37,127 nt of DNA from a virus. A program made the translations under genes and the position numbers. Within the stretch, counting starts at the first letter, position 1. Every line of letters begins with the position of its first letter. Under the pieces are notes generated by a model that did no database searches, was not told where the DNA came from, and worked only from the letters and a program-made list of their open reading frames with translations. Positions 3,148 through 36,552 of this stretch are shown here, in pieces. The stretch spans positions 1-37,127 of IMG/VR virus record IMGVR_UViG_3300030107_002931. The stretch is one strand, 5' to 3'.

Positions 3148-4974
3148 ATGTCTACATATCAGGAAATAAAAGGATTAAAAATTAAGTATCTTAGTTCTGA
3201 TACTTCAGGAGATAGATTAATAGAAGGTGAAATTTTTTATAATTCTACTGATTTTAAAATTAAATCTCACGTATCTACTGTTGCATGGCATGCTTCTGGT
3301 CCTTTACTTACTGCAAGAGGTCTTGCAGGTAGTGGAGGAACTCAAACAGCTGGTTTTGTTGCAGGTGGATTTGGTACAGCAGAAACAGCTATAACAGAAG
3401 AGTATGACGGATCAGGTTATGCTAATGGTGGAAGTATAAATACTGCTAGATATCAGATGGGAGGACTAGGTACACAAACTGCAGGTTTAATTATGGGTGG
3501 ATTTGATCCCCCAAGTGTTGCAATTGCAGAAGAGTATGATGGTTCATCCTGGACAGAGTCTGGGGATTTAAATATAGCAAGAAGAGCATCACACGGAACA
3601 GCAGGAACTCAAACAGCTGGATTAGTTTATGGAGGTTACAGAGATATTACACCAACTCCTAATGGAGCAATGAACAGTACTGAATCTTATAATGGAACTT
3701 CGTGGACAAACGAACCAGCTTTGAATACTGCAGTTTGGGGCAATGCTGGAGATGGAGTACAAACAGCTGCTTTATCTGCGGGCGGACCTCCTGCACAAAC
3801 AGAAATTTATGATGGTTCTTCTTGGACAACTGCTCCAAATTTAAACACAGCAAGATTATATCCTGGAGCAGCAGGTACAACAACTTCAATGGCAATTTTT
3901 TCAGGGACTACAGATGGTGGTGATGGTGGTCTTTCAAATGCAACAGAATTATTTAATGGCACGAGTTGGACAGAAACTGCAAACTTAGCAACTCCAAGTA
4001 GGCATCCAGGTATGGCAGGAATAACAACCGCAGCTGTTCGTATGGGCGGCTATGGTCCAGCGGCGAAAGGAAATACAGAAGAACTTAGTATAAGTATGAC
4101 AGCGACAACTGCTGGTGCTTGGACAAATGGACCTAACATGGCAACTGCAAGACAACTTATAGGTGGTTCTGGAACTGGTCCTACAGATGCTTTGGCTTTT
4201 GGTGGAGATACAGGACCTGCTAGAGTTACCACTACAGAAGAATATAATGGATCATCTTGGAGTAGTGGTGGAAGTATGGCCACAGGAAGATCTGCATTAG
4301 GATCTGCAAGATTAGCACCACAAACAGCTGCACTTGGTTTTGCTGGATATCCGGATACAAATAAGACAGAAGAATATAATGGATCATCTTGGAGTGAAGG
4401 TGGAGATTATCCTTCATCTACTTCTGGTTTTCAAGGTGGTGGTGGAACTCAAACAGCTGCTTTAGGTGGTGGAAATAATAGTACAAGTGTTTTTGAATAC
4501 GATGGATCTAACTGGACTTCAGGAGGAAATTATCCTTTAGGAGCATATTATGTTTCTATTACAGGATCACAAACAGCTGCTATAGCTGCTGGAGGTGGAA
4601 GTGGAGGATCGTATGTAGCAAACGCAGCTGAATATAACGGATCATCTTGGACGGCTACTGCAAACTATCCATTTTCTGTTGGAAGAATGCCTGGTGCAGG
4701 ACCACAAACAGCAGCTGTTTTTGCTGGTGGTTATACAAACACTGGACCAACTGATATTTTTTATAGTACATGTAATAGGTATGATGGCACAAGTTTTTCT
4801 AGTATAACAGCATTAAACACTGCTACATCATCAGGCGCAGCATCAGGATCAGTATCAGCAGGTTTAACTTTTGGAGGAGGTTATGGTCCCGGTTTTAATG
4901 AATCTAATAAAACACAAATTTATACTGACGAAACAACTGCAGCAAGAGCAGTTAAAACAATTGACTTTGATTAA
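3148..4974 (+). CDS. Double-propeller kelch-like phage fibre protein, third paralogue
   Basis: A 608-residue protein with the same plan as the gene at 951: a short head (TYQEIKGLKIKYLSSDTSG...GEIFYNSTDFKIK), six repeats, a linker (EELSISMTATTAGAW) near residue 310, six more repeats, then a closing strand. The repeat core is GTQTAGL..GG...EEYDGSSW. Heads of the two paralogues align (IKG.K.K...SD......GEIF), while the repeats vary most at loop positions between the conserved strands. The ribosome-binding site is AAAGG just before the start. Likely a receptor-binding or fibre protein; the specificity is unknown. Confidence 0.85.
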   Translation: MSTYQEIKGLKIKYLSSDTSGDRLIEGEIFYNSTDFKIKSHVSTVAWHASGPLLTARGLAGSGGTQTAGFVAGGFGTAETAITEEYDGSGYANGGSINTARYQMGGLGTQTAGLIMGGFDPPSVAIAEEYDGSSWTESGDLNIARRASHGTAGTQTAGLVYGGYRDITPTPNGAMNSTESYNGTSWTNEPALNTAVWGNAGDGVQTAALSAGGPPAQTEIYDGSSWTTAPNLNTARLYPGAAGTTTSMAIFSGTTDGGDGGLSNATELFNGTSWTETANLATPSRHPGMAGITTAAVRMGGYGPAAKGNTEELSISMTATTAGAWTNGPNMATARQLIGGSGTGPTDALAFGGDTGPARVTTTEEYNGSSWSSGGSMATGRSALGSARLAPQTAALGFAGYPDTNKTEEYNGSSWSEGGDYPSSTSGFQGGGGTQTAALGGGNNSTSVFEYDGSNWTSGGNYPLGAYYVSITGSQTAAIAAGGGSGGSYVANAAEYNGSSWTATANYPFSVGRMPGAGPQTAAVFAGGYTNTGPTDIFYSTCNRYDGTSFSSITALNTATSSGAASGSVSAGLTFGGGYGPGFNESNKTQIYTDETTAARAVKTIDFD

Positions 4975-20200: not shown

Positions 20201-21602
20201 AAGAACTTCATTTAATGTAATGAATATATCTACTAAAGAAATTTTGTCCGGAGATCCAATTTTAAGAGAAATGGGATATAGAGGTTTGTTTGGATTGTTT
20301 ACTACGCAAAGTGCAAAAGCAATAGCTATTAAAAAACTATATGGATCTATAACAGGTTTAACAGAAGATATTATGGAAGAATATCAAGCAAATTTAGCTC
20401 CAGGATATCAAAGAAATTCACAGTTATTAGCTATTACTAAAGCTGTAGAAGGTAAATTTAAAATGGTAGATCTTTCTACTGTCCTTCCATATGATTATGT
20501 ACGAAGACCTTGGGAAGCAATAAACAATCTTATTGAACAAAAAAAATTAAAGAATTTAGATACAAGTGATGTTATGTGGAAATTTTTTACAGACGAAGGA
20601 GGACCTATAAGAGAATTCTTTGATCCTTTTATCTCTACACCAATTGGATTAGAAGCTATCCAGGATTCAATTAGAGGATATACTAAAACAGGAAAGAAAA
20701 TTTTTAGTGAATTAGATTCTGATGAAACTAAGAATGCTAAAAGATGGGAACATTTATATAAATCATTAGAACCAGGAGCTGTTACAACTCTAAGACAATT
20801 GTTTTCTGCGTACACAGGCACACCTTACAAAGGAAGAGTGTATGATGCACAGGATGTACTAATGGGTTTAGCAACTGGAATTAAACCATATGATGTAGAC
20901 GTAAATAAGACTATAGATTTTTTAATTAGTGATTACACCAAAATTAGATCAAAAGCTTTTGATGCAAGTATTATGTATAGAAAAGAAACAAGTAATGAAA
21001 ATAATGAAATTGAAAATGACTTTATTAGAATACAAAGAAATGCTTGGAGAGAGCAAAGAAGAATTTATCAAGCTTTTAAAACAGCTGAAAAATTTGATGT
21101 AGATTATTACAGTATTAAAAAAGAATTAAAAGCAAGAGGTATATCATTTAAAGATGTTAGAAAAATTTTAAATGGTGACTTTGATCCTCTTCCTTTTAGT
21201 GAAGACAGATTTAAAAATAAACTTAAAGAAGTAGAGGAAGATAATGACGAATTTAATAAAGGTAAAAAAAGACAAAGAATATTTAATAGAGATTCTTTTT
21301 ATCCTAAATATGAGTTAAAAGATATTTTAAGAGATTTAAAATATCAAAGATTAGATGAACCTTTTTTCTATGATAAAATTAAAGCACCTACAATACCAGT
21401 TAATACTCAAACAAGTATGGTGATGCCTGATAAAACAACAGCATTAACAAAAAATATTGAAACACCACCATTACCATTAACATCTATGCCTAATAAAAAA
21501 TTAGTGGCAAGTTTACCACAAACTAATTTACAAACAGGCTTGACACGTACGGAAAGTGCTTTACTATCACCAAGTGAACAGGTAATTGCAAGGAGAACGT
21601 AA
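17274..21602 (+). CDS. Giant internal virion/DNA-ejection-type protein
   Basis: At 1442 residues this is the largest gene here. A charged N-terminus leads to several hydrophobic Gly-rich stretches (about 285-335: IIGLGFPLIGKALGLGVRG...VGYGVGVTYDTLG), which could insert in a membrane. Long Lys/Asn-rich helical regions follow. Near residue 960 is LPLGNFVAFPAETLRTSFN, a motif I associate with the large internal protein of marine podovirus-like phages. The C-terminus carries a Pro-rich stretch and GLTRTESALLSPSEQ. No lytic transglycosylase motif is evident at the N-terminus, unlike T7 gp16. The likely role is as part of the ejected channel guiding DNA through the envelope (inference). It shares TAATG with the lysis gene at 21602. 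Confidence 0.72.
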   Translation: MGEKAYSYYDSLPSKFDDKDTIDTIKFHLSRNNEKEPKHKAKKKVFNPFSLLLVDPTLAPTMWMKKAKYNKKIKEGKLDQITDDERLLFESKVDTNKGPFERYSIKKLIPRDKREEVDYVSDIATGAVIGPPLAVKSLTELLTIGADHAFDSNYTEKLDGLTRKFLEYSGEPETLAGEITQLGTQFAVPMKITDKVIRNIPNAIKWFKNRTLFMNNAKLANRHRFIQSSAGLAQRMGTGALSLGATDFLISGGERKLDPIFYERTKEEGKTGKELAAARLSNKIKFGKEGAIIGLGFPLIGKALGLGVRGVGYGVGVTYDTLGRVVNPLITPVLKGLAADPIFLPSIAKAIRGNADVIFNQFGTRLLLTGWGGKFRTKQWTQQLPPYEQWKRFTVDNVDSVKSGLKKIDNAISWIRSAGKNTAEAAFIKSSANREIRASGKRIQELLKSIENKSYSLAKGFESTYNSNKTSPSLMNKYLDEVLEVLENKRKLSNLPKILQPTVKDLKEQITKINKVFNRYVPDDDSFAHALNSGTKSYIKKSFAFLNNPNYSMPSTNPIFIKAAKFAENLIKSDKNLIDEAVMAAGKGVSKSKAIKDYSNLMMRQILDLGKVDNRNPFEVLRKVGERLNLDGFLKEGEELPAAINKLLGQERNLRNNVLFTTASMMSAVANKQAYDTLARIMLKQGQVFRTAAEARAAKQTIDVVQIGRIDGMSGLRTDLSKLYTDAQTAKVLKSNRGPLDILAEIPGYATFLQFKAGVQWGKTVGSPATGSRNFVTAADFALIRGLIGGRSSVTNAVKMQIDDIYNSGKLSGSAEQRLLDSIEEGIKYGALDENIVVTELRQLLAATQKGKTINSFDGMIKEAGNARIVELMGKLYAGGDHVWKWYGYNWYKSFLKDYARNDIKRMQNWFSKVANRELDLLNTDGSKKTLDEIIKEASAYYVRNTMPTYSKVPDIIKGIRNLPLGNFVAFPAETLRTSFNVMNISTKEILSGDPILREMGYRGLFGLFTTQSAKAIAIKKLYGSITGLTEDIMEEYQANLAPGYQRNSQLLAITKAVEGKFKMVDLSTVLPYDYVRRPWEAINNLIEQKKLKNLDTSDVMWKFFTDEGGPIREFFDPFISTPIGLEAIQDSIRGYTKTGKKIFSELDSDETKNAKRWEHLYKSLEPGAVTTLRQLFSAYTGTPYKGRVYDAQDVLMGLATGIKPYDVDVNKTIDFLISDYTKIRSKAFDASIMYRKETSNENNEIENDFIRIQRNAWREQRRIYQAFKTAEKFDVDYYSIKKELKARGISFKDVRKILNGDFDPLPFSEDRFKNKLKEVEEDNDEFNKGKKRQRIFNRDSFYPKYELKDILRDLKYQRLDEPFFYDKIKAPTIPVNTQTSMVMPDKTTALTKNIETPPLPLTSMPNKKLVASLPQTNLQTGLTRTESALLSPSEQVIARRT

Positions 21603-21979
21603 TGTCAAAAAAACCAATGAACATAAGCGAGGAAGCCGCTGTACAAATGCCGATGAAAACGGTTGCTAGTTTAATTTTACTCGTCGCAGCTGGCGTGTTC
21701 GCTTATACCGAGCTGACGGCAAGGTTGGTATCGTTGGAGACGTCGCGTGAGCTAATGCAAGCTGATCTCTTAAATGCGTCGGACCAGAAGCCGGTCGATC
21801 AGGAGCAATTTATGTTAATTGAAAGTTTATTTTCTGACGTGGAAAAATTAATTACAAATCAAGAACAGAATATGACTAACAAAGTCAATATAGAATTTTT
21901 AAAAACACAATTAGAAAAAGCTTTAGATGATGTCGAAGAATTAAAAGATAAAGTTAGACAAAATGGAGGTGCACATTGA
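21602..21979 (+). CDS. Membrane-anchored coiled-coil lysis protein (holin/spanin-like), copy 1
   Basis: A 125-residue protein with a cytosolic leader (ISEEAAVQMPMKTVAS), one transmembrane helix at about 22-40 (LILLVAAGVFAYTELTA) and a C-terminal coiled coil (NIEFLKTQLEKALDDVEELKDK). It heads a lysis cassette with the endolysin three genes downstream, so a holin or inner-membrane spanin role is likely. It is paralogous to the gene at 36139: AAVQMPMKTVASLI is identical. The 5' half is markedly GC-richer than neighbouring genes. AAGGAG precedes the start. The stop overlaps the TTG start of the next gene. Confidence 0.75.
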   Translation: MSKKPMNISEEAAVQMPMKTVASLILLVAAGVFAYTELTARLVSLETSRELMQADLLNASDQKPVDQEQFMLIESLFSDVEKLITNQEQNMTNKVNIEFLKTQLEKALDDVEELKDKVRQNGGAH

Positions 21980-23070: not shown

Positions 23071-23100
23071 GCGCGCGCTACGCGTACGATCCTACGTTTT
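23071..23100. other. GC-rich convergent gene junction
   Basis: The 34 bases between the convergent genes are strikingly GC-rich for this genome: GCGCGCGCTACGCGTACGAT then CCTACG and TTTT. Short self-complementary words (GCGCGC, ACGCGT, CGTACG) and a 4-bp CGTA/TACG stem before TTTT could fold, but no convincing long terminator stem is present. This is where rightward lysis and leftward helicase transcription meet, so a termination or collision role is plausible. Confidence 0.4.
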
Positions 23101-23423
23101 CATGGAGATATTTTAAACTCTAAACCAATAACTATTCCTTTATTACCGTTAGATTCTAAAGCTGGCGCAACAAACCAATTATTTTTTTTATATCTTAACA
23201 TAGGGATTAAATTTGAATGTGTATAACCAGTGACTAAACCTAATTCAAAATTATTATGTTCTATTCCTATATAAGAAGATATTCTATGTTCACTATTATA
23301 GTAAATTCCAGAAATTAACTCATTTTTTTGACATCGAGCATGCGGGTGGTAACTATTATAATCTCCTTCTAAGCCTAAATGAAGAGAAGTTGCAAATAGT
23401 ATAGATAAACAAGTGTTTATCAT
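23100..23423 (-). CDS. Small exported, possibly outer-membrane, phage protein
   Basis: A 107-residue product from the ATG that overlaps the helicase stop (ATGA); a TTG six bases earlier is possible. It starts with a short hydrophobic signal-like segment (MINTCLSILFATSLHLG), then GDYNSYHPHARCQ and alternating strands with aromatic residues (GIYYNSEHRISSYIGIEH, ELGLVTGYTHS), ending IVIGLEFKISP. The even strand pattern and terminal aromatic-hydrophobic residues suggest a small beta-barrel or lipid-facing protein. It may alter the host envelope early in infection (inference). It is co-transcribed with the helicase. Confidence 0.65.
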   Translation of the reverse strand: MINTCLSILFATSLHLGLEGDYNSYHPHARCQKNELISGIYYNSEHRISSYIGIEHNNFELGLVTGYTHSNLIPMLRYKKNNWFVAPALESNGNKGIVIGLEFKISP

Positions 23424-24850
23424 ATCCAAGCTTTTAAATCTTCACCAAGAACCTGGGACGCTATATTAATTTTAGCACGAAGAGCCTTAACAATTTTTTC
23501 ATCAACTGTATCTTCAGCAATAATATCAACATAAGTTACATTTTTCTTTTGACCAATTCTATGTGCTCTGTCCTCTGATTGTAATCTTTTTTCTAGATCA
23601 TACCCATTAGAGTAGTAAATCACAGTATTGGCCGCAGTAAGAGTTATTCCATAGCCCCCGGTTTGTGGAGTTCCTACTAAAAATCTGCATTTTGGATCAT
23701 TTTGAAATTTACGAATGTTATCTTGTCTTTTATCTTGTGGCGTGAGCCCATAATAGTCAACAATGGAACTTGGACCATGGACCTTAACAACTTCTTTAAT
23801 TATATTATTTATATCAAATTGGTAATGTGCCCATATAATAGCTTTTCCTTCCATTTCAGATAATACATCCATTAATTCTGTAATTCTGTTATTAGCTATA
23901 GGCTGCGTGCTACCATCATCTGCGGTAAAATGACCACAAGTAATTTGATGTAATCTCATCAATTGAGTTAACACAGTCATAGTTGAAGTTACTTTACCAT
24001 TTAAATGTGCAATGGCTTGTTCTTTCATTTGACTGTATATTTTTCTTTGATCAGTAGACAAAGAAATTTGTCTTTTAGTCCAATTTTTTTCTGGTAAATC
24101 TAAGCAATCTTCTTTTAATACCCTATAAGAAAATACCTTTAATAAATCAGACAATTCACCCAAATTTTTAAATTTATCTACTACTTGTATTGATCTTCCT
24201 CTTATATTTAAAGTTTTCATTTCTGCATATCTATTTCTAAAAGAATAATAAGAAGCAAAGTTCAATAACCACGGATCAAGGAACTCACATTGACTATATA
24301 AATCTAGTGGGTTTTTTGTAACAGGAGAGCCTGTCATTATTCTTTTATATTTAGCAAATTCTGAAAGTTTAATAATATTCTTTGTTCTTTTGGCAGATGG
24401 GTTTTTAATAGTTGTAGATTCATCTATTGCCATCATAGCTTTGTGAGAATTTAAAAACTTAAAAGCAAAATCTACACCTTTACCTGTAGATAAAGCTTCA
24501 ACATTCATAACTAATACATGAAGAGCTGTTTCTATTTTAAATAAAGAATCTAATTTTTCTTGTTGACCTTTATTTATATTTGCCTGCCATAATACTGACA
24601 CATTTTCAATATGATCTGGTAAATGAGTAGGTAATTCCTGCTCATACCAAGTTTTAATTACACCTTTAGGTGCAATAATTAAAACACTGTCTATTTTACC
24701 CTTATCGTAAAGCATAGCAGCATTATCTATTAATACCTTAGTTTTACCTGTACCCATTTCCATAAAATAGGCAAAAGTTTCTTTATTCCATGACTTTTCT
24801 AAAGCAGTCATTTGATGCTTATATGGTTTTGTCTTAAATTTATATTTCAT
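23420..24850 (-). CDS. SNF2-family superfamily 2 helicase/ATPase
   Basis: A 476-residue protein with full SF2/SNF2 motifs: Walker A MGTGKT (32-37), motif II DEST (143-146), motif III MTGSP (172-176), and motifs V-VI GTPQTGGYGITL and QSEDRAHRIGQ (424-434). Such phage SNF2 proteins are ATP-driven DNA translocases; they may act in replication, recombination or displacing bound proteins. It is the first leftward gene, starting 17-19 bases from the predicted start of the palindromic divergent promoter. GAAAGAAG lies upstream as a weak ribosome-binding site. The length is near the minimum for the core domain, with no extra domains. Confidence 0.93.
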   Translation of the reverse strand: MKYKFKTKPYKHQMTALEKSWNKETFAYFMEMGTGKTKVLIDNAAMLYDKGKIDSVLIIAPKGVIKTWYEQELPTHLPDHIENVSVLWQANINKGQQEKLDSLFKIETALHVLVMNVEALSTGKGVDFAFKFLNSHKAMMAIDESTTIKNPSAKRTKNIIKLSEFAKYKRIMTGSPVTKNPLDLYSQCEFLDPWLLNFASYYSFRNRYAEMKTLNIRGRSIQVVDKFKNLGELSDLLKVFSYRVLKEDCLDLPEKNWTKRQISLSTDQRKIYSQMKEQAIAHLNGKVTSTMTVLTQLMRLHQITCGHFTADDGSTQPIANNRITELMDVLSEMEGKAIIWAHYQFDINNIIKEVVKVHGPSSIVDYYGLTPQDKRQDNIRKFQNDPKCRFLVGTPQTGGYGITLTAANTVIYYSNGYDLEKRLQSEDRAHRIGQKKNVTYVDIIAEDTVDEKIVKALRAKINIASQVLGEDLKAWI

Positions 24851-24868
24851 AATTTTTCTTCTTTCTAG

Positions 24869-24902
24869 TTGACAATATAATCTTTAGCACCTATATTGTC
24901 AA
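24869..24902. promoter_or_regulatory. Symmetric palindromic divergent promoter
   Basis: TTGACAATATA (24869-24879) and TATATTGTCAA (24892-24902) form a perfect 11-bp inverted repeat with a 12-base spacer. Rightward: -35 TTGACA (24869-24874), 17-base spacer, -10 TATATT (24892-24897), predicted start about 24904, gene ATG at 24924. Leftward, the mirror image gives TTGACA, 17 bases, TATATT, predicted start about 24867, gene ATG at 24850. Each arm therefore serves as -35 for one direction and -10 for the other, so polymerase should bind only one way at a time. The arms could equally be a repressor operator. Confidence 0.85.
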
Positions 24903-24923
24903 GCATGAAAGAAAAAATAAAGT

Positions 24924-25310
24924 ATGAGATACGAAGATATAAGTAATAAAATAAAAACAGATCCAATTGTTTATGTTATTCAAGAAATACCTGGAACACA
25001 AGCAGGCAATCCTAAAATAAATATTATAGGTGCTTCGCATTTTGGCAAAATGAAATTTTTGCTCCCGGAATTTTCTCAAATAATATTTTCTCCTGGTCCT
25101 TTAATTTTTAAATTAAGACAAAATTTAAAAAATTTTAAAGAAGGAGATTTTTTATTATTGACAGGTGACCCTGCTATAATTGGTGTTGCATGCTCTATAG
25201 TTTCTGACATTACAAATGGTAAATACAATCTATTAAAATGGGATAAACAAGAAAGAAAATATTATCCTATTGAAATTAACTTATACGAGAAAGGAGAAAT
25301 TGATGATTGA
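24924..25310 (+). CDS. Conserved phage early protein of unknown function
   Basis: A 128-residue soluble protein, first gene of the rightward replication block, about 20 bases from the predicted promoter start. It looks alpha/beta: INIIGASHFGKMKFLLPEFSQIIF, then KEGDFLLLTGDPAIIGVACSIVSD. No nucleotide-binding or metal motif is clear. Its place at the head of the early operon suggests a regulatory or replication-start role, but I do not recognise the family. The stop lies just inside the next gene (ATGATTGA). Confidence 0.75.
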   Translation: MRYEDISNKIKTDPIVYVIQEIPGTQAGNPKINIIGASHFGKMKFLLPEFSQIIFSPGPLIFKLRQNLKNFKEGDFLLLTGDPAIIGVACSIVSDITNGKYNLLKWDKQERKYYPIEINLYEKGEIDD

Positions 25311-25851
25311 TTTTGAAAAAGACCAACAAAACACAATGAAGAAGACTGATAATATTCAGTCACTTGCAGATCAAGTTGAGAAGTTAGAAAAACTACAGTC
25401 TAGACTTGAACTACAAGAAGAAAATATCAAGAATACGAAAAAAGAATTAGATCGTTTATCTGGGGAGGTTATTCCAACCATGATGGCTGAGATGGGTTTA
25501 TCTCATCTTAAACTTATGGATGGTTCTTCAGTAGACGTTAAGCCTTTTTATAGCGCAACTATTACAAATGCGAATAGAGAAAAGGCTCTCAACTGGCTTC
25601 GTAATAATGGACTAGGAGATATAATCAAAAATGAGATATCCGTATCTTTTGGTCGCAACGAAGAAAACAAGGCAGCTGATTATGCTTCCCTTGCACAAGA
25701 GCGTGGGTTTCAGCCGACACAAAAGATGAAGGTTGAACCCATGACTCTAAAAGCGTTAGTCCGTGAGCGTATTGAGGCAGGTAAAGACATGCCAACGGAA
25801 CTTTTCAACATATTTGTTGGAAATAAAACTACAATAAAAAGGAAACAATAA
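25303..25851 (+). CDS. Conserved phage protein with N-terminal coiled coil
   Basis: The chosen start is the ATG at 25303, six bases after AAGGAGA (25291-25297); a longer frame from a TTG at 25270 has no such site. The 182-residue product has a coiled coil at about 15-55 (LADQVEKLEKLQSRLELQEE) and a mixed domain with DGSSVDVKPFYSATIT, NREKALNWLRNNG and PMTLKALVRERIEAGKD. I recall relatives in many T7-like and marine phages without a known function. It sits between two replication-block genes, so a replication or recombination accessory role is likely (inference). Confidence 0.75.
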   Translation: MIDFEKDQQNTMKKTDNIQSLADQVEKLEKLQSRLELQEENIKNTKKELDRLSGEVIPTMMAEMGLSHLKLMDGSSVDVKPFYSATITNANREKALNWLRNNGLGDIIKNEISVSFGRNEENKAADYASLAQERGFQPTQKMKVEPMTLKALVRERIEAGKDMPTELFNIFVGNKTTIKRKQ

Positions 25852-25853
25852 AC

Positions 25854-26600
25854 ATGAACCAAGTAGCAGAAAAAAAAGAAGGAGCATTAGCAACGAATAT
25901 ATTTGAAGCTGATGCTGATAAAGGTGCTCAAAACATATCGCAAGAAGATCTTGCGTTGCCTTTCTTAAAAGTTTTGGGACAACTATCTCCAGAAGTAAAT
26001 AAAAGAGATGGTAAATATGTCGAGGGCGCAGAACCCGGCAAAATAATAAATACTGTTTCTAATGAACTGTATAACGACATTAATGTCTTACCAGTTTTTT
26101 ATAAAAGACAGTATGTAGAATGGCAAGATCGTGGACAAAGCACTGGTGCTCCAGTTGCAATTCACGAGGCAGACAGTGATATCATCAGTACAACTACTCG
26201 TGATAAATCTTTCAAAGATAGATTACCAAATGGTAACTATTTAGAAAACACTGCTAACCATTTTGTAATACTGTTAGGCAGTAGCCCAACAACAGCTTTG
26301 ATTTCTATGAAAGCTACTCAATTAAAAGTGAGTAGAAAATGGAACTCAATGATGATGGGTATTAAGATGCAGGGTAAAAACGGATTATTTACTCCGCCAA
26401 CATATAGCCACATTTTTAATCTAAAGACTGTTCAGATGTCTAATGACAAAGGAACATGGTTTGGATGGGATGTATCTAAAGTTGGTCCTGTAACTGACAA
26501 ATCAATCTATGATATCGCTAAAAACTTTGCTGAAAGAGTAGGAAAAGGTGAAGTACAAGCGAAGCATGGTACAGAGGAAAACTCTAATACACCATACTAA
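25854..26600 (+). CDS. Conserved phage replication-block protein, possibly ssDNA-binding
   Basis: A 248-residue protein. Recognisable parts are EDLALPFLKVLGQLSPEV near residue 33, GKIINTVSNELY, and a central beta-rich domain (NHFVILLGSSPTTALISMKATQLKVSRKWNSMM is split into strands) ending in aromatic-rich WFGWDVSKVG. The C-terminus is flexible and polar and ends ENSNTPY, like the ESAPY end of the downstream primase. The position between early genes and primase, and the domain look, suggest a single-strand-binding protein, but this is inference. AAAGGA precedes the start. A terminator hairpin follows at once. Confidence 0.7.
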   Translation: MNQVAEKKEGALATNIFEADADKGAQNISQEDLALPFLKVLGQLSPEVNKRDGKYVEGAEPGKIINTVSNELYNDINVLPVFYKRQYVEWQDRGQSTGAPVAIHEADSDIISTTTRDKSFKDRLPNGNYLENTANHFVILLGSSPTTALISMKATQLKVSRKWNSMMMGIKMQGKNGLFTPPTYSHIFNLKTVQMSNDKGTWFGWDVSKVGPVTDKSIYDIAKNFAERVGKGEVQAKHGTEENSNTPY

Positions 26601-26613
26601 TCGAATCCTAGGT

Positions 26614-26651
26614 AGTGGGCGTCTAAGCGAGAGTGGATACGCCCACTTTTT
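26614..26651 (+). terminator. Intrinsic terminator/attenuator hairpin before the primase
   Basis: A perfect 9-bp stem, AGTGGGCGT (26614-26622) with ACGCCCACT (26639-26647), encloses a 16-base loop and is followed by a T run that ends at 26651. It lies 14 bases after the stop of the previous gene and only three bases before the primase ATG at 26655. Partial read-through would step down expression of the primase, helicase and polymerase genes relative to the gene upstream. Confidence 0.85.
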
Positions 26652-26654
26652 AAT

Positions 26655-28229
26655 ATGATTGAAAAGTTTAAAAAAATATTTTCGGGATTAGAAGAAAGAT
26701 TTGGATACCACGTTTTAGATTCTACCAATGGTGATGGTAAAAAATCTGGGGTATCTTTTACATCTTCTTATGCACATACAGATGAGATGTGGAAAGCTCA
26801 TTTAGAAGGAATTAAATTTTCCGTAAAAACAAAAAATAAAACTATAGAGGCAGACAGTTTAGGGTTATGTCCAATAAAAAGTGATAGCACGTGTCTTTGG
26901 GGTGCTATAGATTTAGATGATTACAAACCAGACGTAAAAGAATTATTTAAAAAAATAAAAAGTATTAATGTACCGTTTATACCTTTTAAATCTAAAAGCG
27001 GAGGAATTCATTTATATATTTTTTTAACAGAACCTGTGAAAGCTTTATTATTAAGAGAAAAACTACATAGTATTAAAAATATATTTGGAGATTGTAAACC
27101 AGATAAAATTTTTCCTGTGCAAAAATATTTAAATTTAGATAAAGGTTCTGCAGGAAGTTGGATAAATTTACCTTATCATGATGCAAAGAAAACGGTACGG
27201 TATATGATAAAGGAGGATGGCAGTCCGGCCACAATTGAAGAGTTCTTTGAACACTACGAAAGAAATAAAGTAACTCCAGAAAAACTTAAAAAACTAAAAT
27301 CAAACATAGACGAAGGCGACTCAGGAGATTGGTTCCAAGATGGACCACCTTGCATGCAAGCTCTTGCAAAATTTGGAATACAACGAAGTCAAAGGAATGA
27401 AGTTCTTTTGGATATGACAAGATATGTTAAGCAAAGATATCCTGAAGAATGGAAAAAGCAAACTCATAAATATAATGAAAAGTTTTTTGAACCTATTGGA
27501 AAAGGTATGGGATATGATGAAGTTGGAAACGTTATAGGATCAAGAGAGAAAAGAGATTATAAATATAGATGTGATCAAGATTGGTTAAAAACTTATTGTA
27601 ATAGAGAAGAATGTATAAAAAGAAAATTTGGGGTAGGTGGAGGAGCCACAACCGAAGTTGTTTTAGGTCCTCTTTCTTTTGTTAAATCTACACCAAAGAT
27701 GTGGTATCTTGGTTTTAATGGAGATGAAGTTAGACTTAACTCTAAAGAATTACTTAGGCAAGATTTAGCTAGAGAAGCAGCTACAGAACAAACTGGAAAA
27801 ACTCCAAAGAAAACAAAAAATTGGGATGAACAAATTAGATTACTTCAAGAAAAAGCAACACCAATAGATGCTCCAGAAGAAAGTCAACCTAATGTTCAAC
27901 TTAAATCTTATTTAGAAACATTTTGTTTTAATCTAAGACAAACTACTAAAAAGAAACAATTACTATTTAATAGACCTTATTTTGAAGAAGGAAAAGTAAG
28001 ATTTATATTTAATGGTTTTTATAAGTATTTAAAAACTAATGATTGGTCTACAGGAGAAGATATTACACACCAAATGCTTAAGAAGATGAAAGGGGTTAGT
28101 AGAGAAAAATTTCATATAGAGGAAAATGTAAAAAAATGGGTTTATGTTTTAGATATAGAAGACTTTAAAAATAAAGAAATAGAACATGAAGATATTGATT
28201 TTGGTCAAGAAGAAAGCGCTCCATACTAA
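26655..28229 (+). CDS. AEP/PrimPol-type DNA primase
   Basis: A 524-residue protein. The N-terminal domain has the archaeo-eukaryotic primase signature: metal-binding AIDLDDY (84-90, D86 and D88), then SKSGGIHLYIFL (about 113-124) with the basic/His nucleotide-binding motif. EMWKAHLEGIK and SLGLCPIKSDSTCLWG before it resemble the TOTE/PrimPol subgroup. A Cys cluster (CDQDWLKTYCNREEC) near 310-325 may bind zinc, and the C-terminal half may be a helicase-contact region. It ends acidic (DFGQEESAPY). It should make primers for the family A polymerase. No Shine-Dalgarno is seen; the hairpin abuts the ATG. Confidence 0.85.
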   Translation: MIEKFKKIFSGLEERFGYHVLDSTNGDGKKSGVSFTSSYAHTDEMWKAHLEGIKFSVKTKNKTIEADSLGLCPIKSDSTCLWGAIDLDDYKPDVKELFKKIKSINVPFIPFKSKSGGIHLYIFLTEPVKALLLREKLHSIKNIFGDCKPDKIFPVQKYLNLDKGSAGSWINLPYHDAKKTVRYMIKEDGSPATIEEFFEHYERNKVTPEKLKKLKSNIDEGDSGDWFQDGPPCMQALAKFGIQRSQRNEVLLDMTRYVKQRYPEEWKKQTHKYNEKFFEPIGKGMGYDEVGNVIGSREKRDYKYRCDQDWLKTYCNREECIKRKFGVGGGATTEVVLGPLSFVKSTPKMWYLGFNGDEVRLNSKELLRQDLAREAATEQTGKTPKKTKNWDEQIRLLQEKATPIDAPEESQPNVQLKSYLETFCFNLRQTTKKKQLLFNRPYFEEGKVRFIFNGFYKYLKTNDWSTGEDITHQMLKKMKGVSREKFHIEENVKKWVYVLDIEDFKNKEIEHEDIDFGQEESAPY

Positions 28230-29935
28230 TGGATAAATTTTATAAGCAAAGATATAAAATACTTGGAGGTCCAGGGTGTGGAAAAACCACTGAAATAATG
28301 AAAATTTTAAGTAATTATTTTAAAGCTGGTTTGCAACCAAGTCAAGTTTTAATGATTGGTTTTGCTAGAGCAACTAAGGATAGATTGCAAGAAAAAGTTA
28401 TCAAAGATTTAAAATTTTCAGAAAAACAATCAGAAAGTATAAAAACTATTCACAAATATTGTTTTGATTTACTACCTGGGAAAGATGTTTTTAACTCTAG
28501 AGCAAAAAGAGAATTTAAAAAAAAATTAAAAACTGATCCAGACAACTGGGTTATGTTAGATACACCTAAAGACAAAGAGGATGAAGATTTTGCTATGTGG
28601 TCAGCCGAAGAAGACAAGAAATTACATGAGATATTTCAATTAATTGGTTTTGCAAGACACTCTAGGAAAAAATCTATAGAAGATATATTAAAATTTCACG
28701 GAGACCATAAAGATTATAAATTTGCTAAGATTCAACAATACGAAATTAAATATTGTTTTAAAAATTATAACAATTTTAAAAAACATAACAACATGATTGA
28801 CTTTGAAGATATGTTAGAAGAAGTTTTAGTAGATAATATTATATTTCCGGAATACAAAGTAGTAATGATAGATGAGGTTCAAGACTTAACCCCTCTTGAA
28901 TGGAAAGTTATATCTAAAATAGGTCGTAGAACTGAAGAGATGTATCTAGTTGGAGATGATGATCAAGCTATTTATGGTTGGAAAGGATCTAATGTAAAAA
29001 TTTTTCAAAAATGGCCATGTAAAAAGGAAAATATACGAAGACTACCTAAAAGTTATAGGCTTCCTATTAAAGTATACAACTTAGCACAAGAAATAGTAGG
29101 AGATATAAACAATAGGTTAGGAAATGATTATAAACCAGCCAAAGATATTGAAGGTATTGTATCTTCTTTTTATAGCACTGAAGAAATGGATGGCATATTA
29201 AATGTAAACTCGAATGCAATTCTATGTGCGAGAGGGTGGCTTCAATGTAAACCTTATGTAAGATATTTAAAAGAAAGAGGACTGCTTTGGAAAGAAAAAT
29301 CTAAAAGTCAAGAACATATGGGTTCTTTTGTGTCAAGCTTCCCTGACAAATACCAAAAAATACTAAAAAGTTGGAATATGTTGCAAAATGGACACGGTAT
29401 TAAGGGAAAATATTTAATGGAAATTATTAAATATTTTAAAAGAGGTTTAGTTAGACACGGAAAAAAAGAAGCTCTTACTGATTTAAATACCTGCCCTGAA
29501 GAATTTAAAGATAAAAATATGTTTTTTAATTACAAAGATATGAAAGAAAAATATTTTATATTGGCTGATATAAATAAATCTTGGTTTAATGTATTTAATT
29601 TTAACACAACAAGAAAAAAAGATAAAAATCAACCTAACGCAATATTTGATGACGACGAGGATTTTAATAATTATTTAAAAGTGTGCTATGAAAATGATTC
29701 TACTTTATCTAAAACAGATATAATTGTATCTACTATTCATGGTGTTAAGGGAATGGAAAAAGATAAGGTTATTTTAAATAGTGATTGGGGATTTTCTTAT
29801 AATAATTTTAGAAGTGGAATAGTTGAAAAAGAAGATGAAGAACTTAGAACTTGCTATGTTGGAGTAACTAGAGCTAAAGAAGAGCTTCATATAATGACCC
29901 TTGGACATAAAAATAATTTTGATTATTTAAGATGA
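28229..29935 (+). CDS. UvrD/Rep-like superfamily 1 DNA helicase
   Basis: A 568-residue SF1A helicase with the full motif set: Walker A GGPGCGKTT (13-21), IGFARATKDRL (motif Ia), DEVQD (215-219, motif II), GDDDQAIYGWKGS (242-254, motif III), STIHGVKGMEKDKVI (motif V) and CYVGVTRAKEELHI (motif VI). It would unwind DNA 3' to 5' in phage replication or recombination. It is smaller than UvrD (about 720), mainly by reduced 1B/2B domains. TAATG couples it to the primase, so the pair likely work together at the fork. No DnaB/gp4-type helicase is seen in the window. Confidence 0.93.
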   Translation: MDKFYKQRYKILGGPGCGKTTEIMKILSNYFKAGLQPSQVLMIGFARATKDRLQEKVIKDLKFSEKQSESIKTIHKYCFDLLPGKDVFNSRAKREFKKKLKTDPDNWVMLDTPKDKEDEDFAMWSAEEDKKLHEIFQLIGFARHSRKKSIEDILKFHGDHKDYKFAKIQQYEIKYCFKNYNNFKKHNNMIDFEDMLEEVLVDNIIFPEYKVVMIDEVQDLTPLEWKVISKIGRRTEEMYLVGDDDQAIYGWKGSNVKIFQKWPCKKENIRRLPKSYRLPIKVYNLAQEIVGDINNRLGNDYKPAKDIEGIVSSFYSTEEMDGILNVNSNAILCARGWLQCKPYVRYLKERGLLWKEKSKSQEHMGSFVSSFPDKYQKILKSWNMLQNGHGIKGKYLMEIIKYFKRGLVRHGKKEALTDLNTCPEEFKDKNMFFNYKDMKEKYFILADINKSWFNVFNFNTTRKKDKNQPNAIFDDDEDFNNYLKVCYENDSTLSKTDIIVSTIHGVKGMEKDKVILNSDWGFSYNNFRSGIVEKEDEELRTCYVGVTRAKEELHIMTLGHKNNFDYLR

Positions 29936-30003
29936 GCGAAGAAGAATTTTATAGATTTATAATGAGAATGGAAAGAGAACTTTATGGAGAAGAAGATGAG
30001 TGA
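29932..30003 (+). CDS. 23-residue coupled microORF
   Basis: ATG overlaps the helicase stop (ATGA) and 23 codons (MSEEEFYRFIMRMERELYGEE...) run to a TGA inside the start of the DUF3310 gene. The peptide is an acidic amphipathic helix. It may be a true microprotein or mainly a device that carries ribosomes from the helicase gene to the next start. Evidence is coupling only. Confidence 0.4.
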   Translation: MSEEEFYRFIMRMERELYGEEDE

Positions 30004-30265
30004 TGAAATATATAAAAAACAAGTCGGTGGGACCCACTATAAATCTATGGCAATTCAACCTTCAGAATTTATTAACAGAAATAATATTCCGTTTGCAGAA
30101 GGCAACGCAATTAAATATTTATGTCGCCACAAACAAAAAAATCAAAAAGAAGATTTGTTAAAAGCAAAACATTATATTGACATGGCTATCGATAGAGACT
30201 ATCCTGAAGAAGTGAAAGAAGAAATAAAAAAAACTAAAAATTTTTGGGGGATAATTGAGAAATAA
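29996..30265 (+). CDS. DUF3310 family protein
   Basis: The start at 29996 follows GGAG by five to six bases and gives MSDEIYKKQVGGTHYKSMAIQ, the canonical opening of the DUF3310 family (also listed as nucleotide-kinase-like in phages); an ATG 12 bases earlier is possible. The 89-residue length is typical, and the core AEGNAIKYLCRHKQKN..DLLKAKHYIDM is intact. It is widespread in phages near replication genes. The proposed nucleotide metabolism role is not established. It overlaps both flanking microgenes. Confidence 0.85.
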   Translation: MSDEIYKKQVGGTHYKSMAIQPSEFINRNNIPFAEGNAIKYLCRHKQKNQKEDLLKAKHYIDMAIDRDYPEEVKEEIKKTKNFWGIIEK

Positions 30266-30416
30266 GATTTTAACTATTCATGCTGAATGGTTAAAACAAA
30301 ATGGATATCCACATGAAAATTGTATTAAACAATCTTATCCTGAAAATGATTTTAGAGATAAAAAAGGTAAAAAAAGATTAATTAGAAACAAACAAGGGAG
30401 ATTTATAAAATTATGA
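30255..30416 (+). CDS. 53-residue basic microprotein (TTG start)
   Basis: This fills the 147-base space between DUF3310 and the polymerase. A TTG at 30255 inside the end of DUF3310 opens a 53-codon frame (RNKILTIHAEWLKQNGYPHE...), which ends in an ATGA overlap with the polymerase start. The product is basic, especially the C-terminus (DKKGKKRLIRNKQGRFIKL), so nucleic-acid binding is possible. The perfect coupling to the polymerase start supports reality; the TTG start makes it a moderate call. Confidence 0.55.
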   Translation: MRNKILTIHAEWLKQNGYPHENCIKQSYPENDFRDKKGKKRLIRNKQGRFIKL

Positions 30417-32341
30417 TACAGAGACCTTTATTTTCGCCACAAGTTGAATGGACACCACCGGAGGAATTTCCAGATTTATCAAAGTATGATGAAATAGCAA
30501 TAGACTTTGAAACAAAAGATCCAGATTTAAAAACAAAAGGATCAGCTTCCGTAAGAGGTATAGGAGATGTTGTAGGTATAGCGGTAGCGGTTAAGGACTT
30601 TTGTGGTTATTATCCAATTGCTCATGAAACAGGGCCCAATATGAATCGTAAACAGGTTCTAGGTTGGTTTGCAGATGTACTAAAAACTCCTGCAGATAAA
30701 ATATTTCACAACGCCATGTATGATATATTATGGATTAAAAGATTAGGGCTCACGGTCCACGGAACAGTGGTAGATACAATGACAGTGGCTTCACTTGTTA
30801 ATGAAAATAGATTTAGATATGATTTAAATTCAGTTGGAGCAGAATATACAGGGATGACTAAAAATGAATCTGCTTTAAATGCTGCAGCCAAAGAATGGGG
30901 ACTAGACCCTAAAGCTGAAATGTACAAATTGCCAGCGATGTACGTTGGAGAATATGCTGAAAAAGATGCTGAGTTGACATTGGCGTTATGGCAAGAGTTA
31001 AAAAAAGAAATAGAGCATCAAGAACTTCATTCAATTGTCTCATTAGAACAAAGGGTTTTCCCTTGCCTAGTAGATATGAAATGGAAAGGTGTTAGAGTAA
31101 ATTTAAACCAACTAGAAATTTTAGAAAAAAAATTAAAAACAACTTATTCTGATTGTGTTGAAAGAGTTAAAAAAGCAACAGGTATTTTTCCAGAAATATG
31201 GGCAGCAAAAAGTATTGCTAAAGTTTGTGATGAATTAGGAATTAAATATGAAAGAACAGAGAAAACAAATGCTCCCTCTTTTACTAAAAATTATTTATCT
31301 AAACATAAAAATCCTGTTATTAGAAGTATTGCTGCTGCAAGGCAGGCTGACAAATTAAGAAATACTTTTTTAGAATCTATAAAAAATTATGTTGTTAATG
31401 GTAGAATACATGCTGATATTCACCAATTAAAAGGTGACCAAGGAGGAACGGTAACTGGTAGATTAAGTTATTCACATCCTAATTTACAACAACTGCCTAA
31501 CTACACTAATATAGGTATGGGAATAAGGTCTATATTTATACCTGAGGAAGGTTGTGAATGGGGTTGTTTTGACTACTCACAACAAGAGCCAAGACTGGTA
31601 GTACATTTTGCTTTAAGAACACCTGGTATTACAGGGGTAAGTGAGATTGCTGAAAAATATCATAAAGGTGTGGAAAAAACATTACACAAAAATTTAAAAA
31701 TACGTAAAGATCAAGACTTTCATCAAATAGTTGCTGACATTGCAGACATTGATAGAAGTGATGCAAAAACAATTAATCTTGGTTTATTTTATGGAATGGG
31801 TCAAGCAAAGCTACAAGCACAATTAGGTATAAATGATGAAAATGAAGCTAAAGAATTATTAGCAAGATATCACCGTAGCGTTCCTTTTGTTAAACAATTA
31901 ATTAAAAGCGTCATGGATAGAGCCCAAAGAAAAGGAAGAGTAAGAACTTTATTGGGAAGAGCATGCAGGTTTGATATGTGGGAACCAAATCAATTTGGTA
32001 TGCATAAACCCCTTACATTTCAGCAAGCTTGTGATGAGATTGGTATAGGAAATATTAAAAGAGCTTTTACCTATAAAGCTTTAAATAAACTTATACAAGG
32101 ATCTGCTGCTGACATGACAAAGCAAGCAATGGTTAATTTATACGAAGAAGGTATCACTCCAATGATTCAACTACATGATGAATTAGATATTTCAGTTAAG
32201 GATGAGGCTCAAAGTAAAAAAATTATAGACATAATGGAAAATGCAGTGCCCCTTGAAATACCTAATAAAGTAGACTATGAAAATGGATCAAATTGGGGTA
32301 GTATAGATAAAGAAAATGAAGTAAATGAAAACTTCTTTTAA
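30413..32341 (+). CDS. Family A DNA polymerase with 3'-5' exonuclease
   Basis: A 642-residue replicative polymerase of the Pol I/T7 gp5 type. Exonuclease residues are D31 and E33 (AIDFET), D104 (HNAMYD) and YAEKD (181-185). Polymerase motif A is CFDYSQQEPR with D387, motif B is AKTINLGLFYGMG near 451-463, and motif C is QLHDEL near 586-591. There is no 5' nuclease domain, as usual in phages. The residue matching E. coli Pol I Phe762 is Leu (INLGLFYG), a variant linked in viral surveys to slower or more accurate replication. It is coupled to the upstream microgene by ATGA. Confidence 0.95.
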   Translation: MIQRPLFSPQVEWTPPEEFPDLSKYDEIAIDFETKDPDLKTKGSASVRGIGDVVGIAVAVKDFCGYYPIAHETGPNMNRKQVLGWFADVLKTPADKIFHNAMYDILWIKRLGLTVHGTVVDTMTVASLVNENRFRYDLNSVGAEYTGMTKNESALNAAAKEWGLDPKAEMYKLPAMYVGEYAEKDAELTLALWQELKKEIEHQELHSIVSLEQRVFPCLVDMKWKGVRVNLNQLEILEKKLKTTYSDCVERVKKATGIFPEIWAAKSIAKVCDELGIKYERTEKTNAPSFTKNYLSKHKNPVIRSIAAARQADKLRNTFLESIKNYVVNGRIHADIHQLKGDQGGTVTGRLSYSHPNLQQLPNYTNIGMGIRSIFIPEEGCEWGCFDYSQQEPRLVVHFALRTPGITGVSEIAEKYHKGVEKTLHKNLKIRKDQDFHQIVADIADIDRSDAKTINLGLFYGMGQAKLQAQLGINDENEAKELLARYHRSVPFVKQLIKSVMDRAQRKGRVRTLLGRACRFDMWEPNQFGMHKPLTFQQACDEIGIGNIKRAFTYKALNKLIQGSAADMTKQAMVNLYEEGITPMIQLHDELDISVKDEAQSKKIIDIMENAVPLEIPNKVDYENGSNWGSIDKENEVNENFF

Positions 32342-36138: not shown

Positions 36139-36552
36139 ATGGCACTAAAAATTTCAGAACAAGCGGCAGTGCAAATGCCAATGAAGACGGTAGCGTCCCT
36201 AATCGCGCTGGTTGCGATTGGAACCTGGGCTTACTTTGGTGTAATTGAGACGCAAAACAGACTTCAAACTCAGGTTGAATTAATGTCTAAAGATTTAATT
36301 GAGAACACAGAGTTTAGAATCAAATGGCCGCGGGGCCAACTTGGGTCGCTTCCCGCAGATTCCGAGCAATTTATGATGATCGAGGATTTATATAAGACCA
36401 CCGATAAGTTAAATGCACACATAGAATCTATGGCGTTGAACAAAGTTAATATAGAATTTTTAACAAAACAAATGGACAAAGTTTTAACTGATATAGAAAA
36501 ATTAAAAGATGCATCTAGAGAGATGAAATATACAAATGGAGGTCATCAATGA
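36139..36552 (+). CDS. Membrane-anchored coiled-coil lysis protein (holin/spanin-like), copy 2
   Basis: A 137-residue paralogue of the gene at 21602: identical AAVQMPMKTVASLI leader, transmembrane helix at about 18-38 (ASLIALVAIGTWAYFGVIET), then a coil ending NKVNIEFLTKQMDKVL. The middle differs: FRIKWPRGQLGSLPADSEQFMMIEDLY replaces the copy 1 segment before the shared EQFM.IE. The DNA of the leader and of the WPRGQLGSLP segment is GC-rich against its surroundings. It overlaps the next gene (ATGA). Probable lysis function by association with the endolysin. Confidence 0.75.
   Translation: MALKISEQAAVQMPMKTVASLIALVAIGTWAYFGVIETQNRLQTQVELMSKDLIENTEFRIKWPRGQLGSLPADSEQFMMIEDLYKTTDKLNAHIESMALNKVNIEFLTKQMDKVLTDIEKLKDASREMKYTNGGHQ

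Follow-up and report, generated by a model that had tools for sequence, protein, structure and literature searches.

The window, by which we mean the whole stretch of viral DNA analysed here (37,127 nucleotides), has Pelagibacter phage HTVC027P and phage 023Pt_psg01 as its nearest named phages and is therefore regarded as a fragment of an HTVC023P/027P-type pelagiphage. HTVC027P lacks an RNA polymerase of its own and reportedly uses the host enzyme throughout (PMC12753301, a study that included RNA-seq). In the window, a leftward transcript carrying a SNF2-family helicase gene and a rightward replication operon starting with gp1 diverge from a short inverted repeat (Table 1). Two pairs of paralogues were seen elsewhere: adjacent genes of about 610 aa at 951-2783 and 3148-4974 (38% identical; both carry recurrent 'GG...EEY.GSSW' motifs and may encode fibre or kelch-like proteins), and small genes at 21602-21979 and 36139-36552 (47% identical, phrog_20984), the first after the late genes and the second near the right end of the window.

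Table 1. Features at the helicase/gp1 junction of the window and at the second site in relatives.
Feature	Position	Strand	Remarks
Small ORF overlapping helicase 3' end, probably co-transcribed	23100..23423	-	no family above cut-off
SNF2-family DEAD/DEAH helicase, leftward transcript	23420..24850	-	
CTTTC flank (GAAAG read toward helicase), conserved	24861..24865	.	relatives
Helicase transcription start, predicted	24866..24867	-	inferred from -10 position; leader ~16-17 nt
Mirror-symmetric bidirectional promoter (predicted), 34 bp	24869..24902	.	repeat arms, promoter scan, shuffles, recurrence at junction
gp1 promoter -35 TTGACA	24869..24874	+	24874 doubles as helicase -10 position 6
Helicase promoter -10 TATATT (read 24879 to 24874)	24874..24879	-	relatives: TATCTT, TATGTT, TATTCT
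gp1 promoter -10 TATATT	24892..24897	+	24897 doubles as helicase -35 position 6
Helicase promoter -35 TTGACA (read 24902 to 24897)	24897..24902	-	promoter scan
gp1 transcription start, predicted	24904..24905	+	inferred from -10 position
Leftover ATG at relatives' gp1 start site, 13-codon frame out of register with gp1	24905..24946	+	
GAAAG flank beside gp1, conserved	24907..24911	.	relatives
gp1, first replication-operon gene, Pam3 gp32-like	24924..25310	+	
Remaining replication operon: Pam3 gp33-/gp34-like, primase, DNA helicase, DUF3310, DNA polymerase A	25303..32341	+	
Second mirror-symmetric divergent promoter, predicted	L604:1506-1539, L605:1593-1626, L615:1501-1534		terminase small subunit/small divergent gene

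The symmetric element in the window

The inverted repeat consists of the arms TTGACAATATA (24869-24879) and TATATTGTCAA (24892-24902) separated by a 12-nt spacer. TTGACA-N17-TATATT can be read on the (+) strand at 24869/24897 and on the (-) strand at 24902/24874 within the same 34 bp, and the base pairs 24874 and 24897 are each the final base of one -35 and of the opposite -10. The original prediction had described this palindrome, its 12-base spacer and the TTGACA/17/TATATT arrangement on both strands, all confirmed here by the sequence and a promoter scan, and the gene starts (24924 for gp1, 24850 for the helicase) agree with it. Scored against the E. coli sigma70 consensus, which may not be that of SAR11, both directions match 11 of 12 hexamer positions with an N17 spacer, inside the 16-18 bp spacing of sigma70-type hexamers, and they rank as the top two among 77 promoter-like matches in the right-hand 20 kb. 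The observation exceeds chance: a pair of promoters of at least 11/12 on one 34 bp occurs once in the window and in none of 300 dinucleotide shuffles, and the shuffle mean for pairs of at least 10/12 was 0.003. Perfect 11-bp inverted repeats were observed three times in the window versus 0.47 expected, and such a repeat taken alone is poor evidence. No further exact copies of the arms were found elsewhere in the window, and near-matches were rarer than expected.

Recurrence and start codon spacing in relatives

The original prediction proposed to look for the palindrome in related phages, and it is indeed kept: the exact 22-base arm pattern is present in at least 119 IMG/VR viral contigs and, among the matches listed, lies at the helicase/gp1 junction in all 119, with CTTTC/GAAAG outside the arms and a variable spacer. 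Three length classes (33, 34 and 37 bp) occur among relatives at this junction. The psg01 group retains TTGACA...TGTCAA at 37 bp with a poorly defined gp1 -10, and the HTVC023P group lacks a gp1 homologue and arranges the junction differently, with AGGAGG leaders. Additional matches to a loose pattern in the records G013 and G009 look like chance (the G013 context was examined). The conserved GAAAG was rejected as a Shine-Dalgarno sequence, as it is too near and abuts the helicase ATG in many 37-bp relatives; both flanks persist in HTVC027P-type relatives and partly in phage DSL-LC04, though the arms are lost there. A sigma-factor annotation in DSL-LC04 (85 aa) was set aside, being without Pfam confirmation.

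The HTVC027P-type relatives, a sister group, have kept the junction but neither of the 34-bp arms. A helicase promoter TTGACT-N17-TATATA together with a gp1 promoter TTTACT-N18-TATA(A/T/G)T or a near variant was found in 39 of the 40 distinct GTCAATG-bearing junctions, with overlapping -10s and a predicted start-to-start distance of 21 bp. The predicted two-way promoter thus persists at this junction with its overlap, in an altered geometry. Relatives that lose an arm and keep both operons had been named in advance as counting against the promoter pair; the HTVC027P-type phages do lack the arms, yet they retain an overlapping divergent promoter. The exact palindrome is dispensable by this comparison, and what persists seems to be the overlap of the two directions.

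In two near-complete relatives (G001 and G002) and in the contig G011, a like element of 34 bp separates the gene for the terminase small subunit from a small gene that runs the other way. This second copy is non-homologous; the start codons on its two sides lie 1-4 nt beyond the arms, and both mRNAs would be leaderless if those promoters are used.

At the helicase/gp1 junction, 7 nt separate the -10 from the in-frame gp1 ATG in 105 of 108 distinct 34-bp contexts. The spacing is 7 nt in 26 and 8 nt in three of the 33-bp contexts with a TATATT gp1 -10 (n=29), and 6 nt in 31/33 of the 37-bp contexts. From the 34- to the 37-bp class the GTCAA-to-ATG distance changes by 3 nt and the -10 moves along with the ATG, which places the predicted transcription start at the A of the ATG and would yield a leaderless mRNA. 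Judging from the -10-to-ATG spacing, the gp1 mRNA is probably leaderless in most relatives. The window is an exception, unlike 104 of the 108 contexts, in that gp1 starts at 24924, 26 nt past the -10, apparently because the leader has changed slightly in length. The ATG at 24905, which the original prediction missed, occupies the gp1 start position of nearly all relatives.

Promoter rules, mirror symmetry and competing readings

Arm variation was followed in searches with one arm fixed and the other free. Left-arm variants (TTGACAAGATA, -ACATA and -GAATA) change the helicase -10 to TATCTT, TATGTT and TATTCT, and right-arm variants give a gp1 -10 of TATAGT. Nearly all variants retain TTGACA and TA---T, at sequence level a sigma70 signature, while the mirror symmetry is mostly broken. 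TTGACA is present in 83/83 distinct 33/34-bp contexts outside the exact-pattern set; the constancy of TTGAC/GTCAA is partly by construction, as the extraction pattern required both. In the helicase- and gp3-based sets, TTGAC/GTCAA is absent in only 8 of 112 loci. The gp1 -10 is TATATT or TATAGT in 34/35 of the 34-bp contexts, and in this class the left arm varies solely at -10 positions 4-5 and the right arm chiefly at position 5. Constraint on the -35 and on -10 positions 1, 2 and 6 is seen in the 34-bp class and not in the B/B 33-bp class, which carries TATATG at both -10s (position 6 lost) and keeps perfect symmetry; hybrid elements with one arm of each kind exist. Many 37-bp elements have the off-consensus helicase -10 TATATA. 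On a tree of 162 helicase sequences, the helicase -10 changed at least 28 times versus at least 12 times for the gp1 -10. Single-arm changes were mostly uncompensated, both in the variant searches, where the fixed arm limits the comparison, and on the tree. Of 26 aligned elements, 14 have lost the 8/27 pairing and none compensates for it, a count biased by the fact that most rows were fetched with one arm fixed, so that compensation could hardly appear.

The substitution pattern is more that of two promoters than of a strict dyad, and the palindrome would be mainly the look of two overlapping consensus promoters and not a separate dyad site. Two overlapping divergent sigma70-type promoters, as first proposed, are thereby borne out at the sequence level by conservation of the junction and by substitutions that obey -35/-10 rules. 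Against two promoters stand the TATATG of both B/B -10s, the off-consensus helicase -10 of the 37-bp classes and the poorly defined gp1 -10 of the psg01 type.

The original prediction also saw an ideal dimeric operator in the palindrome, and the near-perfect dyad of the type A and B/B elements could be bound by a dimeric regulator, of phage or host origin, that silences the two directions together. The best evidence for such an extra dyad-binding protein is that left and right B states are correlated on the tree, agreeing in about 5/8 independent pairs and never being opposite (median p 0.06), and some 37-bp relatives (e.g. L196) contain an inner 18-bp perfect dyad, ATATAAACATGTTTATAT. Among 257 Gb of cellular genomes the exact pattern had six matches, none titled SAR11, which speaks against the operator reading; two of the six lie just upstream of XRE-M78 (HTH_3 + Peptidase_M78) genes, so the sequence could in principle serve such a regulator. 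These two sites (L601:486-519 and L603:2516-2549, in Spirochaetota and Ignavibacteriae genomes) may be auto-operators. Like the phage element they precede a gene start, and their arms and spacer length are identical to it, but they are cellular and directly adjoin only a rightward gene, whereas the phages have no recognisable intact XRE protein. Profile searches of 20 related records, several fragments included, found no HTH_3/HTH_17 protein in 19, and the only Cro/CI-type trace among the 20 is a partial HTH_3 match with an internal stop (G008 C1:37143-37223). The geometry differs moreover between relatives and between the two sites of G001, which has no single operator geometry because its helicase site belongs to the 37-bp class and its terminase-side site spans 34 bp. 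The mostly uncompensated single-arm changes and the lack of an intact Cro/CI-type repressor in these records thus weaken the operator claim, the double-arm class that keeps the dyad still speaks for it, and we consider an additional operator function unlikely.

It is less probable still that only one direction works, presumably that of gp1, with the other symmetry functionless and the helicase transcribed otherwise. The slower change of the gp1 -10 and the off-consensus helicase -10 of the 37-bp classes would agree with this, but the 33/34-bp classes preserve the helicase-facing TTGACA (in part because the search pattern demanded it) and the HTVC027P group retains TTGACT-N17-TATATA for the helicase in 39/40 junctions. 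Chance, or a hairpin in DNA or RNA acting as a terminator or replication signal instead of a promoter, is very improbable: perfect 11-bp repeats are not rare in this AT-rich window, but the element recurs at one junction, has neither a GC-rich stem nor a T tract, and shows the uncompensated breaks at the 8/27 pair, mostly in rows with one arm fixed by the search.

A putative bidirectional promoter and its relation to known systems

The element is likely to be a bidirectional promoter in which two near-consensus sigma70-type promoters overlap reciprocally and are bound by the host polymerase. Each arm would provide the -35 of one promoter and, with one base pair in common, the -10 of the other. 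The host sigma70 holoenzyme would bind in one of two orientations, and the orientation would decide between rightward transcription of the replication operon and leftward transcription of the SNF2 helicase. Because the promoters overlap, two polymerases are expected to exclude each other sterically, as also expected from earlier results with promoters of this kind (PMC12825309). In that paper the basal activity of five E. coli bidirectional promoters was not high enough for competition, and interference set in when activity was increased; the near-consensus hexamers found here would place the phage element in the interfering regime. More tentatively, the divider or switch suggested by the original prediction might be a stochastic divider, in which near-consensus promoters on one 34 bp compete at high activity and produce at least one leaderless mRNA, the design having arisen separately at the terminase junction; we regard this extended scenario as possible but rather doubtful.

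Published prokaryotic bidirectional promoters have a pseudo-symmetric -10 common to both directions and starts typically 10, 18 or 23 bp apart (Warman et al. 2026, PMC12825309, which refers to Warman et al. 2021 for them; PMC10268837). By analogy, the phage element resembles them in its short symmetric sequence with sigma70-type elements on both strands, its predicted divergent mRNAs and the presumed binding of polymerase in a single orientation. It differs in that the -35s of the window overlap the opposite -10s while the -10s do not overlap each other, in that the predicted starts are 37-39 bp apart, and in that both promoters are near consensus. Overlapping -10s with starts about 10-23 bp apart are found in the HTVC027P-type relatives and not in the window.

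Lambda PR/PRM and Tn10 tetA/tetR are overlapping back-to-back divergent promoters built around a known repressor. As in these systems, the divergent promoters in the window are close and mutual interference is possible; unlike in these systems, no repressor was identified, and the 34-bp dyad and the core promoter elements occupy exactly the same bases. The exact geometry is not described in the literature searched, which took in few subscription journals. The element would be an uncommonly exact version of a promoter type already known, not a new type.

Bidirectional promoters have been called ubiquitous yet hardly studied (PMC12825309). The junction described here offers a strong-consensus, naturally symmetric pair with at least three geometries at a homologous junction and an independent second site, in HTVC023P/027P-type phages of the ocean bacterium SAR11, a group that is very common and abundant in the sea. 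Its natural variants are ready-made mutants for the study of polymerase competition, -10 tolerance and leaderless starts, and the element would supply a host-type promoter to a phage group in which the member studied has no RNA polymerase gene.
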